DNA from: Beijerinckiaceae bacterium
GTDB lineage: Bacteria; Pseudomonadota; Alphaproteobacteria; Rhizobiales; Beijerinckiaceae
Length of the DNA: 42,456 bases
Direction: 5' to 3'
Assembly: GCA_947372795.1 (NCBI GenBank)
Contig: CANBVC010000002.1
Coordinates: forward strand, 1 to 42,456
Part shown: positions 1,682 through 30,832 of the stretch, in pieces
Numbering within the stretch: position 1 is the first letter of the stretch
Layout of the letters: the number at the start of each line of letters is the position of its first letter
The notes under the pieces: model-generated
What the model saw: the letters and a program-made list of their open reading frames with translations, nothing else
Databases searched by the model: none
What the model was told of the DNA's origin: nothing
Translations under genes and position numbers: made by a program

Positions 1682-2115
1682 AGCGACCTCTCTCGCAATC
1701 CACAGAAACGGAGCGCTGTGGACAGCAGTGGATAACGGGCGCCAAATGGCGATCTTCGTCCACACTGCCCTGAGCAGCGTTTTTTCTCAACCGCTCTGGC
1801 CCTGGTGAGTGAAAGAGAGACATTTTTGCGAATAAGTCTAATTGCGAGGGTAACTCTTCGGCCATCCACACAAAGTGGAAGTCGAAGTCACCGAAATGGT
1901 TAATGTTTTCGTAATAGCGGCAGCTGAGCTTTAGAGCCTGTGAATTGGTGTGATTATGTGGGCAACCGGTGTAAGGGCTGGGTATAGACCGGCGTCAACG
2001 ATTCAAGGTGGCTAATAAGAAGAATACGATTCAAGAATCTTTCTCTTTTATTTTTATGAGCGATCAGCATTTCGTGTGATGAAGATCAAGGAAGAGTCTG
2101 GCGAAGGATAAAAAC
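1682..2115. promoter_or_regulatory. Candidate chromosomal replication origin (oriC)
   Basis: AT-rich gap between PPSR and hemJ; DnaA-box-like sites caatccaca 1696-1704, tgtggacag 1717-1725, agtggataa 1727-1735 (rc TTATCCACT), tcgtccaca 1756-1764, ccatccaca 1862-1870, tgtgggcaa 1957-1965; CtrA-like TTAA-N7-GTAA 1900-1914; GANTC x3 at 2000-2039; AT-rich 2010-2075. Confidence 0.7.
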
Positions 2116-4049: not shown

Positions 4050-4065
4050 TGTTTCACGTGAATCA
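4050..4065. promoter_or_regulatory. parS: parS centromere site (15/16 to TGTTTCACGTGAAACA)
   Basis: TGTTTCACGTGAATCA between rho and mnmE. Confidence 0.85.
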
Positions 4066-5465: not shown

Positions 5466-5481
5466 TGTTTCACGTGAAACG
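5466..5481. promoter_or_regulatory. parS: parS centromere site
   Basis: TGTTTCACGTGAAACG between mnmE and mnmG. Confidence 0.92.
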
Positions 5482-7370: not shown

Positions 7371-7993
7371 CGGATCTTGAGGTAGAGAAAGCCCCCGTCG
7401 CGAGAGAGGTAGATCGGGATCTCGCCACCAGGCTCAGGATCTATGAAGAGGTCCTGGTGAAGTGGCAGCCCAAGATGAACCTCGTGGCGCCATCAACGCT
7501 AAAATCGATTCGGATCCGGCACATTGAGGATTCGCTTCAGGTAACGGATATACTACCAGAGGCCCGTAGTTGGATTGATCTCGGTTCCGGCGGGGGCTTC
7601 CCAGGCATCGTCTCGGCGCTTCGTTTGCGCGGCGAGCTCGGGGCCATGGTGCATCTGGTCGAGAGCGATCACCGCAAATGCGCTTTTCTGCGGGAAGTTT
7701 CACGTGAAACACAGGCCCCTGTAGAGGTTCATCGTGGCCGGATCGAAGATGTGCTCCCAGCCTTGCCGGAGACGGACGCGATCAGCGCGCGCGCGCTCGC
7801 CAGCTTGTCCGTTCTCATCGAGATGAGTATCGAAAGGCTCTTGAACGGCGCCGTAGCGGTTTTTCTCAAGGGGCAAGATGTTGGGTCTGAATTGACCCAA
7901 ACGCCTATTTATAGTAGCTTAACCACTAGATTGATCGCCAGCCGAACCGACCCGCAGGGTCGCATTGTGGTTCTAGGCCCTACAATCTCTTGA
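7367..7993 (+). CDS. rsmG: 16S rRNA (guanine527-N7)-methyltransferase RsmG (GidB)
   Basis: [43 protein letters not shown]; overlaps mnmG stop. Confidence 0.96.
7696..7711. promoter_or_regulatory. parS: parS centromere site inside rsmG coding sequence
   Basis: AGTTTCACGTGAAACA, translated as VSRET in RsmG. Confidence 0.92.
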
Positions 7994-8012: not shown

Positions 8013-8828
8013 GTGACAGAAGAGCTTCAAACGAGGGTTCTCGTACTCGCCAATCAGAAGGGCGGCGTCGGCAAGACCACAACCGCCATCAACCTTGGCA
8101 CGGCGCTGGCAGCCATTGGAGAGCAGGTTCTCATCGTGGACCTCGATCCCCAGGGCAACGCTTCCACGGGCCTCGGGATCGACCGGCGTGAGCGCAAGAT
8201 TTCGACCTATGACGTGCTGATTGGCGACCGCGAACTCCGCGATGTCGTCTTGCCGACTGCGGTGCCTCGGCTGCATGTGGCGCCGTCCACTCTCGACCTG
8301 CTTGGTGTCGAGCTCGAGATTTCATCGCATCGGGATCGCACCTATAAACTGCGCGACGCGATCACCCGCATGACCGCCGACCGTCACCCTGACGATCCGC
8401 ACTTCACCTATATTCTGGTCGATTGCCCGCCCTCGCTCAACCTTCTGACGATCAACGCCCTTTCGGCGGCCCATAGCGTCGTTGTGCCGCTGCAGTGCGA
8501 ATTCTTCGCGTTGGAGGGCCTTTCGCAGCTTCTCTCGACGGTCGAGCAGGTCCGCAAGTCACTCAATCCGCGCCTGACGATCCATGGCGTGGTGCTGACC
8601 ATGTTTGATCCGCGCAATAATCTGGCGGCGCAGGTTGTGGCGGATGTTCGCCAGTTTATGGGCGACAAGGTTTACGACACAGTCATTCCGCGCAATGTCC
8701 GCGTGTCCGAAGCGCCGTCCCATGGAAAGCCGGCGCTGCTCTATGATTTGAAATGCACGGGCAGTCAGGCCTATTTGAAATTGGCCTCAGAGGTCATCCA
8801 GCGGGAACACCGGCTGCGCGCCGCCTGA
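8013..8828 (+). CDS. parA: Chromosome partitioning ATPase ParA
   Basis: VLVLANQKGGVGKTTTAINLGTALA, DLDPQGNASTGLG. Confidence 0.97.
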   Translation: MTEELQTRVLVLANQKGGVGKTTTAINLGTALAAIGEQVLIVDLDPQGNASTGLGIDRRERKISTYDVLIGDRELRDVVLPTAVPRLHVAPSTLDLLGVELEISSHRDRTYKLRDAITRMTADRHPDDPHFTYILVDCPPSLNLLTINALSAAHSVVVPLQCEFFALEGLSQLLSTVEQVRKSLNPRLTIHGVVLTMFDPRNNLAAQVVADVRQFMGDKVYDTVIPRNVRVSEAPSHGKPALLYDLKCTGSQAYLKLASEVIQREHRLRAA

Positions 8829-8844
8829 TAGAACGGGGTAGATC

Positions 8845-9747
8845 ATGGCAGACGAAATTCGCCCGCGTTTAGGCCGGGGCCTTGCTGCGCTGATTGGCGA
8901 TGCGGGCATGAACGCCGGACCCGCTGAGACGCCGCGCCCTAACCAGCGCAAGGTTCCCATCGAGTTCTTGCGGCCGAATCCTCGCAATCCTCGCAAGCAT
9001 TTCAATGAAGAGCATCTCGAGGAGCTGACCGGGTCGATCCGCGAGCACGGGCTCATTCAGCCAATCGTGGTGCGCTCACTGCCGGGGATGCCCGATGTCT
9101 ATGAGATCATCGCTGGCGAGCGGCGCTGGCGTGCGGCGCAGCGTGCCGGCGTGCATGATGTGCCGGTTCATCTCGTCGAGGCTTCCGACCAGGCGGCTCT
9201 GGAACTAGCCATCGTCGAGAATATCCAGCGCGCCGACCTCAACCCAATCGAAGAGGCGGGCGGTTATGAGCGCCTGATGCGTGAGTTCTCCTATGCTCAG
9301 GCCGACCTCGCCAAGGTTTTGGGCAAAAGCCGCAGCCATGTAGCCAATACATTGCGCTTGCTCAATCTTTCGCCGAGCGTCAGGGCCAAGGTCAGCAGCG
9401 GACTACTGACCGCCGGTCATGCCCGCGCCTTGCTGTCCCTGCGCGATCCCGAGGCTGTGGCGGACCTCATCATTGAAAAGGCCCTCTCGGTCCGCGATGT
9501 CGAGCGTTTGACGCAAGAGGAAGCCGAAGGGATGTCCCCCCAGCTCGAGCGCAAATCGCGTGATGGCTCCAAGGGCGGTAAAGCCCGTGTCGAGAAGGAC
9601 GCAGACACACGCGCTCTTGAAAAGACCCTGTCGGATGTGCTGGGCTTGAAGGTCGAGATCGACCATCAGGGCGAGAGCGGCGAATTGCGCGTCCAATACA
9701 GGACGTTGGAGCAGCTTGACGCGCTCTGTCACCGGCTAAACCGCTGA
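8845..9747 (+). CDS. parB: Chromosome partitioning protein ParB
   Basis: RPRLGRGLAALIGD, IIAGERRWRAAQRAG, ALVENIQR-type motif (AIVENIQRADLNPIEEA). Confidence 0.97.
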   Translation: MADEIRPRLGRGLAALIGDAGMNAGPAETPRPNQRKVPIEFLRPNPRNPRKHFNEEHLEELTGSIREHGLIQPIVVRSLPGMPDVYEIIAGERRWRAAQRAGVHDVPVHLVEASDQAALELAIVENIQRADLNPIEEAGGYERLMREFSYAQADLAKVLGKSRSHVANTLRLLNLSPSVRAKVSSGLLTAGHARALLSLRDPEAVADLIIEKALSVRDVERLTQEEAEGMSPQLERKSRDGSKGGKARVEKDADTRALEKTLSDVLGLKVEIDHQGESGELRVQYRTLEQLDALCHRLNR

Positions 9748-27688: not shown

Positions 27689-27763
27689 GCGGGTGTAGCT
27701 CAGGGGTAGAGCACAACCTTGCCAAGGTTGGGGTCGAGGGTTCGAATCCCTTCGCCCGCTCCA
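27689..27763 (+). tRNA. tRNA-Gly (anticodon GCC), CCA encoded
   Basis: GCGGGTGTAGCTCAGGGGTAGAGCACAACCTTGCCAAGGTTGGGGTCGAGGGTTCGAATCCCTTCGCCCGCTCCA; complete cloverleaf, GCC at 27721-27723. Confidence 0.97.
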
Positions 27764-27965: not shown

Positions 27966-28468
27966 TCACCTGCCAAGGTACGGGCAGATGGCGCTCATTT
28001 TTTCCAACACATCCTTGTTATTGGGGACCTTGAAGACAATTTGATTGACTATGAATTCGGTGACTATACGGGACTTCGCGTTCTCTTTTCCAGAGCGAAG
28101 TATATTTGCCCCACCTCGGGACTCGTCACATAGGCGAGCTTGTTGCCTAAATTGAACTGCCCGAACCCGATTTCGATCGGGCGATCTGTATCAATGCGTA
28201 CCGTCATTTTTATCGCTTTTGGATATGATTTAGCCTGGTCAAAGTCGATGTCTGCAATAAAGGCGATCCACCGCGTCTTTTCCGCGTCATCCCAACACTT
28301 AAAACCAATCGCATAAGAGCTTTTTTCATCATCGACAGAAACATATGCCGTCTTCTCGTCGGTCATGGGATCCACATCAGGGGAGAAGTCCCAGAGGGCA
28401 TAAGCGTGCTGTATCTGCGCTAAGGACAGCAGCGCAATGAATGAAGCTCTTTTTACGTGTGAACTCAT
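27966..28468 (-). pseudogene. Secreted small protein, likely frameshifted (VasI-like DPMTDEK pattern); intact part is 28064-28468
   Basis: Signal peptide then LWDFSPDVDPMTDEKTAYVSVDDEKSSYAIGFKCWDD. A neighbouring frame continues past the stop as SGKENAKSRIVTEFIVNQIVFKVPNNKDVLEKMSAICPYLGR*. Confidence 0.5.
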
Positions 28469-28596
28469 CGAAATTCTCCGGCCATTCGGGTGCTTGAGCG
28501 ATCCGAGTTCCTGATGAAGGGATCGATGACACGTTCGAATTTTATCATCATGCAGATACTGGCATAAGCCAATGAACTGGAGGGCTTTAAGCTTTT

Positions 28597-28707
28597 CCTC
28601 GCTCGACTGCGATATGCCGTACCGAAGCTAAGGTGGCGGGGCGGACCGATGTCGCCCGGAGCGCAAGATCCATCAATGATCGATCAGTGCGGCATACTCA
28701 AGCGAGG
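28597..28707. repeat. Imperfect inverted repeat, about 110 bp
   Basis: CCTCGCTCGACTGCGATATGCCGTAC (28597-28622) against the reverse complement of 28687-28707, CCTCGCTTGAGTATGCCGCAC. Confidence 0.5.
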
Positions 28708-28947
28708 AGCGCACATCTGCACATATGAAAGGTCTCGCTGATACCTCACCGCGAGGCTCCGCTGAGTGCTTCCTTCCAGTAGAAACGAATCACGCGATAG
28801 ATGGCGGGCCCGCAGCCTGCCCAAATAAGGCCCGGGCACGGAGAATAGACCGGATCTTCAGAACCGAAAATTGCCCAATCTTATATCCGGGACATTGGGA
28901 ATGTTTGGGTAATCCAGAACTGTCGGAAACATTTCCCGGCTCGCAGA

Positions 28948-29631
28948 TTAGGCGTAGCGGTTTTTGTTCGCAAAAGTAAATTCTATTACGCAGGGCAGCG
29001 AGATATTGTGTACGTTTCGAATCCCACAGCAATTATTTCCATGAACATGCACCACTACGAAATTTTCACTCAATTTATCAAACACCCGCTTTGCCTTTGG
29101 AAAGAAACCCGGATGCGATAAGTTTTCAAGATTATGAAACTCGCAGCAAATCTGAGCAAATTTATTAAGATCAGCAGAAGATGCGTCGTCAAACACATCC
29201 CACTCCGCACCTTCGATATCAATATTCAAAAGCAAATCTGGCGTAGTTTTCTTAGAGAACTCTCTCACCAAGTCAGGCAAAGTTGCGGTGTCAGGCCCCG
29301 CAGCAGTAGCAATCATTTTCTTATGGAAATTTAGAAGCGGATGCGATGATGGTGCGCAGTCGATCGAATGGTCGAACTGCTCAACAGGAATTCCGCGCTT
29401 TGCGACTTCTAAATCCCAGCTATCATTATCGGATATGCCGAATGAGAATGCATGGCTTATATTTTTGAAATCATCTAGCTGAACATAGCCCCCGTCGCCC
29501 GGACTTCCGACGCGGATTTTCTTATATTTCTCAGACTTCACAGGAGCTAGCGGCCGCAACAAATCGAGTATTTTATTTTGTTGCTCTTGGGGAGACAGCA
29601 ACTCAAAGGGCATATCCATATTATTTGCCAT
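28948..29631 (-). CDS. FkbM-like methyltransferase domain protein
   Basis: RVGSPGDGGYVQLDDFKNISHAFSFGISDNDSWDLEVAKRGIPVEQFDHSID, LLLNIDIEGAEWDVFDD. Confidence 0.75.
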   Translation of the reverse strand: MANNMDMPFELLSPQEQQNKILDLLRPLAPVKSEKYKKIRVGSPGDGGYVQLDDFKNISHAFSFGISDNDSWDLEVAKRGIPVEQFDHSIDCAPSSHPLLNFHKKMIATAAGPDTATLPDLVREFSKKTTPDLLLNIDIEGAEWDVFDDASSADLNKFAQICCEFHNLENLSHPGFFPKAKRVFDKLSENFVVVHVHGNNCCGIRNVHNISLPCVIEFTFANKNRYA

Positions 29632-29812
29632 GATTACACCCCAGCAACTTGATGACATCGCCACCGCATCAAGCGGATTGCGCAAGAGGAAGATTAAGGA
29701 TTAAGAGCCCAGACCCTAAGTTAGTAGTTTACCCCTACAATAACGATTTGCCAAATTTCATTAAGAATGCCTCGGGTTAGTAATGGAATCGACGCGGATC
29801 AGCTAAGATTAA

Positions 29813-29825
29813 CGCCCGCTCCAAA
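29813..29825 (+). repeat. Putative att site copy 2
   Basis: CGCCCGCTCCAAA identical to tRNA-Gly 3' end 27753-27765. Confidence 0.7.
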
Positions 29826-29914
29826 GTGAGGGGCCGTTAGCGGGTTCGCCAAAATCACCAGCCAGTAGATTCTTGGTCTCCCGCTCAGCGAGTCCTCTGA
29901 TGCAGCTTCGAGAT

Positions 29915-30832
29915 TCAAGGTTGCGACGCCATTTTCGCAGGTAGGCGCCGTCCGAGCCATTCGACCATGTCTTCGCTTGGCATGGCGTAGCGCCCCTCCT
30001 TCGCATCAAAGCGGATGGTGAACGGTTCCGATCGAGTCGCTTGCGAAGAATCGTCCAGCGCGAAGATTTTTTTTGTACCGGTCTTCCTTTTGAGCGTTAG
30101 CTCAAGCGCATGCAGTCCGCCTTCGCCGGGCTTGAACCCGTAATCGATCCGGTTCGAGGCGCAACTATTGGTTTGGCTGCTATTGCAGCTTTGTTCATTG
30201 CCCTTGTAGCTGATGAAATCAACCATACGCTTTTGCTTTGGGGTAAAGACGCCGCCAACGTGAATAAGCGTCGTCATCTCCTGATCGAGGCCGTTCGCTT
30301 TAAAATTGTCCGTCACCTCCCAGGCATAGGTATCGATGGCGACCTCGACGAAGCGAAAATTCTTTTCCTCGGCAGGCGCCTGACGCGTGCCAAATTCATA
30401 GAGGCCGTCAAGCTCCCTGAACACGAAGCCCTTCTCTTCGCCCGTCGTGGCGAAATGCATGAACATCACGACGCCGGTTTTAAGCGCGCTCGCCTGATAG
30501 TCCTTGCCCGAAATCGCAAAATAATAATCGTTCTTGTCATTGGCGCCGCGCATGGCGAATTTCGCGGGCTGCATGCAAAAGCGCCGGCCACGCGTCTCCA
30601 GCGTCCAGCAACTCGCCTTTTGATCATAGGCGCCGACGGTCTTCATGACCGCAGCCCAGATTTGCTGTTGTTTGCTCGTATCGACGTTCAGCTTTGTTTT
30701 CTTGGGTTGTTCAAGCTTGGGGGCCGGCCTTTCCGCTTCCGCGAAAGCCGCGACGCACGAAAACGCCATGGCCGCGCCTAGCGCTATGGTCAGCAGCGTT
30801 TTGCCGTTGGACCTGTCATTCAAGGAAAACAT
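29915..30832 (-). CDS. Hypothetical exported protein
   Basis: Signal peptide LLTIALGAAMAFSCVAAFAEA; GC-rich codon use typical of host; no family recognised. Confidence 0.8.
   Translation of the reverse strand: MFSLNDRSNGKTLLTIALGAAMAFSCVAAFAEAERPAPKLEQPKKTKLNVDTSKQQQIWAAVMKTVGAYDQKASCWTLETRGRRFCMQPAKFAMRGANDKNDYYFAISGKDYQASALKTGVVMFMHFATTGEEKGFVFRELDGLYEFGTRQAPAEEKNFRFVEVAIDTYAWEVTDNFKANGLDQEMTTLIHVGGVFTPKQKRMVDFISYKGNEQSCNSSQTNSCASNRIDYGFKPGEGGLHALELTLKRKTGTKKIFALDDSSQATRSEPFTIRFDAKEGRYAMPSEDMVEWLGRRLPAKMASQP

Follow-up and report, generated by a model that had tools for sequence, protein, structure and literature searches.

The intergenic gap at positions 1682–2115 is, with a probability of about 0.94 on sequence comparison, the chromosomal replication origin (Cori/oriC type) of this Beijerinckiaceae bacterium. 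The initial annotation had proposed such an origin between PPSR and hemJ, and its proposal is supported by DnaA boxes, GC skew, parS sites, and conserved DnaA and CtrA sites. Specifically, the cluster of boxes, their conservation in aligned genomes, a switch in skew at the orthologous locus of relatives, and the proximity of parS all agree, and we take the whole gap as the probable origin region. An origin of this type is a known kind of element in a known neighbourhood. What this locus adds is a local change in gene order and a comparative signal for CtrA.

Gene neighbourhood and the position of hemE

The window, which is the whole stretch of DNA analysed, is the entire contig C2 (42,456 bases) of a draft genome of 330 contigs, 3.16 Mb in size and 90% complete. 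Its PPSR protein shares 94–97% identity with that of metagenome genomes deposited as Beijerinckiaceae or Rhizobiales, whose isolate names we read as indicating a freshwater provenance. To the left of the gap lie PPSR, maf, and a partial coaE, with the contig ending after 1.7 kb; to the right lie hemJ, rho, mnmE, gidB, parA, and parB. The two flanking genes diverge from the gap. PPSR (COG1806, the RP001 homologue, a pyruvate,phosphate dikinase/PEP synthase regulator) occupies 848–1681 on the minus strand (Pfam PF03618, E=1.2e-88; NCBIfam NF003742), and hemJ (protoporphyrinogen oxidase; NCBIfam TIGR00701) occupies 2116–2544 on the plus strand, in the usual position of hemE. The N-terminal extension of PPSR, from a GTG at 1765, had been called spurious, and it does look so: a TTG at 1681 has GAGAGAGG directly upstream, and matches to the PPSR of relatives begin at about its residue. 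PPSR likely starts at this TTG, which would leave the entire 434-bp gap non-coding. Further along the window, a tRNA gene (27689–27760) is the sole RNA-family match, and directly past it GC content falls to 0.47–0.50 (28001–30000), as at an inserted element.

The organism's own hemE lies away from the gap, on contig C26, which carries no cluster of DnaA boxes near the gene (at most 2 boxes per 434 bp). This suggests that the origin stayed with PPSR. Relocated hemE genes, defined as those whose retrieved flank showed no PPSR (a weaker definition for short contigs), include eight copies that group within Beijerinckiaceae in one supported clade (100/99). The window organism's own copy was left out of this tree; it is 86–91% identical to three copies in the clade (from G005, G033, and G028). 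A second clade of relocated copies includes the extra hemE of G029, a genome with two such genes: one beside PPSR (L129, G029:C2) and one in this separate clade (L137, G029:C13). G029 is possibly an intermediate in hemE relocation. In another genome, G024, the origin-side hemE (G024:C9:486336-487290) was matched in two neighbouring parts, with open frames of 224 and 175 aa, which points to a frameshift, to decay, or to a misassembly. Having hemJ next to PPSR is not unique to the window, since 19 of 78 orthologous gaps, Bradyrhizobium included, share this layout. We infer that hemE left the locus in the window's sub-clade and that the origin remained beside PPSR.

Probable replication signals in and around the gap

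Eight 9-mers with no more than two mismatches to the DnaA-box consensus TTATCCACA occur in 1682–2115, where at least six had been reported, compared with 0.57 expected from the density elsewhere in the window. In 1000 Markov shuffles of the gap, eight was never reached, so that the gap has a box cluster beyond chance, as an oriC should. Four boxes are packed into 1696–1764, again as reported (shuffle mean 0.13; 0 of 2000 reach four). The gap holds no perfect box, and its single-mismatch box is the one at 1727. The boxes are unequal in an alignment of five near genomes (the window, G028, G033, G005, and G016): all or most of the four relatives retain the cores at 1696, 1717, 1727, and 1862, and the others are not kept, or only partly. 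The TCCACA core is kept in all five genomes in CAATCCACA (1696–1704, plus strand) and CTGTCCACA (1717–1725, minus). The best match, TTATCCACT (1727–1735, minus; 8/9), keeps GCAGTGGAT in all five, and its 9-mer remains within one mismatch of consensus in three. Similarly, CCATCCACA (1862–1870, plus) keeps ATCCACA in 5/5. By comparison, TCGTCCACA (1756–1764, plus) has lost its TCCACA core in near relatives, with only CACA left, and the box starting at 2007 (minus) has not kept its core there. Of two weak matches, TTATTCGCA (1827–1835, minus) is not conserved and possibly due to chance, and TTGCCCACA (1957–1965, minus) is partly conserved.

The spaced trio TCCACA-N(2-30)-TGTGGA-N(2-30)-GTGGA occurs once in the 330-contig genome (90% complete), at 1699–1732; since the pattern was drawn from that site, this shows uniqueness only. 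Across the 78 orthologous gaps, boxes with at most one mismatch number 89 against 5.2 expected, although these gaps are related by descent and their motif counts are not independent events. Among 29 boxes with a core, drawn from 13 gaps of the genus and family, 22 have C at the first position, which is T in TTATCCACA, and the lineage's box therefore resembles C-T/C-A/G-TCCACA-G. It thus departs from the strong consensus, as the Caulobacter G-box does, but mostly begins with C and lacks the G-box substitution. Perfect copies of TTATCCACA number seven genome-wide, none of them in the window contig, which is not above a reversed-pattern control. The genome encodes DnaA.

An AT-rich stretch had also been described, and the most AT-rich 50-mer of the window indeed falls inside the gap, at 2011–2060 (74% AT against a window mean of 40%). 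Lying next to the boxes, it is a candidate unwinding element. It contains a GANTC (CcrM-type) site at 2035–2039, within an AGAATCT kept in 5/5 genomes. A near-invariant block, TTTTTTCTCAACCG, spans 1780–1793 in the five near genomes; a TTTTTTCTCAAC match was also found in G029 (L163) and in none of the other gaps searched. For IHF, the gap holds no match to WATCARNNNNTTR, and the seven matches across the 78 gaps (2.3 expected, shuffle maximum 9) are not convincing.

The partitioning system, expected a few kb away, is present. Three parS sites, each with one mismatch and all on the plus strand (4050–4065, 5466–5481, and 7696–7711), lie 1.9–5.6 kb from the gap, and beyond them are parA (8013–8828, plus; Pfam AAA_31) and parB (8845–9747, plus; Pfam ParB_N and HTH_ParB). 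An origin-proximal parABS within a few kb is frequent in alphaproteobacteria. Strict parS cores were found nowhere in the 330-contig genome (90% complete) beyond those at 4.05, 5.47, and 7.70 kb of the window contig.

The skew analysis covered stretches of relatives and the organism's own contigs, placed by synteny. The GC-skew switch, which the initial annotation had named as a check, is seen at the orthologous locus in three relatives (G059, G022, and G029), and the signs in the own genome agree on both sides. G059 is a complete genome, in which GC and keto skew run mostly negative up to the 20-kb bin holding the gap (690–710 kb) and mostly positive beyond it, with the reverse switch near 2.8–2.94 Mb, roughly opposite. 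G022, of the same genus, switches at the locus on a 5.9-Mb contig. The cumulative minima of G029, at 308.6 and 309.7 kb, are within about 1.1 kb of its gap (about 308.4–308.8 kb). In G005, which has no hemE at the locus, the keto minimum is about 1 kb from the gap and the GC-skew minimum 37 kb away. Local cumulative minima in G033 lie 19–25 kb from the gap, a noisy signal with a right arm of only 28 kb. Because only 1.7 kb of the window contig lies to the left of the gap, the own left arm was placed by synteny with G033; keto excess is negative in all 11 of its contig pieces (pooled values: GC skew −0.017, keto −30/kb). To the right of the gap, GC skew is +0.013 and keto +15/kb. KOPS counts, at 6 and 5 to the left and 6 and 1 to the right, are too few for polarity.

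The CtrA-type site

The CtrA-like TTAA-N7-GTAA first noticed in the gap corresponds to TTAATGTTTTCGTAA at 1900–1914, between the DnaA boxes and the AT-rich stretch. This predicted site has 7 of the 8 specified bases of TTAA-N7-TTAA, the published Caulobacter CtrA consensus (PMC1914354). It is perfect in three of the four near relatives (G033, G005, and G016), and has one mismatch in the fourth (TTAA-N7-CTAA in G028). Perfect copies are found 27 times in 26 loci among the 78 descent-related gaps, compared with a shuffle expectation of 0.5. Other spacings from 2 to 13 yield only 0–2 copies each, which suggests that the CtrA-like site is no accident, although this control addresses base composition and not shared descent. 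The density of the motif is 829 per Mb in the gaps, against 6.3 per Mb in a related background of 1.9 Mb. Its place is nearly fixed, at a median of 231 bp from PPSR where hemE is next and 218 bp where hemJ is next. Its distribution is patchy: more than half of the 78 gaps have no such site within one mismatch, and it is absent from the Bradyrhizobium and Methylobacterium-labelled gaps among them. Across the own genome, perfect copies are not above a reversed-pattern control, so that the evidence for CtrA comes from position and comparison, not from this one site. The genome encodes a CtrA with 84% identity to the Caulobacter query protein.

Alternative readings and known origins

DnaA and CtrA also work at promoters, and the gap might therefore be merely a divergent promoter of PPSR and hemJ that they regulate, with the origin elsewhere, for example, beside dnaA or the relocated hemE. 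The region upstream of dnaA (contig C17) does have three boxes in 200 bp and five in 434 bp. These figures are weaker than those of the window gap (six and eight), the contig with the relocated hemE lacks a cluster, and the skew switch and parS sit at the PPSR locus, all of which makes a promoter-only role very improbable. Both alternative locations were rejected: that beside hemE for its lack of a box cluster, and that beside dnaA for its weaker box group and its lack of parS.

The CtrA-type motif could serve transcription of the downstream gene, hemE in other genomes and hemJ here, since CtrA acts on many promoters as a transcription factor (PMC7200025) and roughly 155–255 bp separate the site from that gene. 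Yet where hemE is gone, the site still stands about 218 bp from PPSR and its median distance to the downstream gene grows from 163 to 232 bp. This, together with its position, flanked by the DnaA boxes and the AT-rich stretch, makes a purely transcriptional role unlikely, if still worth serious consideration. Decidedly less probable is that some other TTAA-binding protein reads the motif, or that it marks a structural element rich in AT. CtrA binding in this family is predicted from sequence, and TTAA is itself common in the gaps (4.9 per kb against 0.63 in the background), but the strict N7 spacing (27 copies against 0–2) is that of the published Caulobacter consensus (PMC1914354), and the genome encodes a close CtrA homologue.

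If the gap is an origin, its operation may be sketched, taking the steps that go beyond the sequence from work on Caulobacter (PMC4468827, PMC1914354). DnaA-ATP would load cooperatively on the individually weak boxes at 1696–1735, aided by the box at 1862, and would then open the AT-rich stretch at about 2010–2060. Helicase would load there, and forks would leave in both directions. Phosphorylated CtrA on 1900–1914, with the boxes on one side and the AT-rich stretch on the other, would prevent DnaA from completing the complex. CcrM methylation of GANTC sites near 2028–2039 may report the state of replication, and ParB on the three parS sites would segregate the new origins.

The closest model is Cori of Caulobacter crescentus (PMC1914354, PMC4468827), which shares the COG1806 neighbour, weak DnaA boxes, a TTAA-N7-TTAA-type site, an AT-rich stretch, and a nearby parABS. 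Unlike Cori, which lies between hemE and COG1806, the window gap has neither hemE beside it nor an IHF match, and it has one CtrA site where Cori has five. The predicted origins of Wolbachia, Ehrlichia, and Anaplasma (PMC1914354) likewise reflect a split of the ancestral hemE-COG1806 pair by rearrangement. In those genera, however, it was COG1806 that left and hemE that kept the origin, whereas here COG1806 would have kept it and hemE left. The Sinorhizobium meliloti origin, from the same order and also a chromosomal DnaA-type origin, reportedly has no CtrA motifs and is not bound by CtrA (PMC4433202), in contrast to the conserved CtrA-type site of the window. Bradyrhizobium gaps (L219, L224, and L226–L228) also lie between PPSR and hemJ, and the 3-kb flank read holds no hemE, but unlike the window they have no CtrA-type site within one mismatch.

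Brucella CtrA is reported not to bind the Brucella origin (PMC2877005). CtrA has since been observed beside the origin in Hyphomonas neptunium (PMC7200025), an organism grouped with Caulobacterales (PMC8116508). Absence of CtrA gating at the origin was inferred from Sinorhizobium and Brucella, the very species that we propose may have lost it. We speculate, with the balance about even, that such gating is widespread among Hyphomicrobiales (Beijerinckiaceae as well as Stappia-, Salaquimonas-, and Nitratireductor-like members), was lost in Sinorhizobium and Brucella, and persisted in the window's sub-clade after hemE left.

The origin itself was to be expected; the value of the locus lies in the comparative signal for CtrA. 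Although hemE serves as a marker for finding origins, an origin need not travel with it. Further, about a third of the Hyphomicrobiales gaps examined carry a site with strict spacing and a nearly constant position, which makes the age of CtrA control over the origin directly testable.
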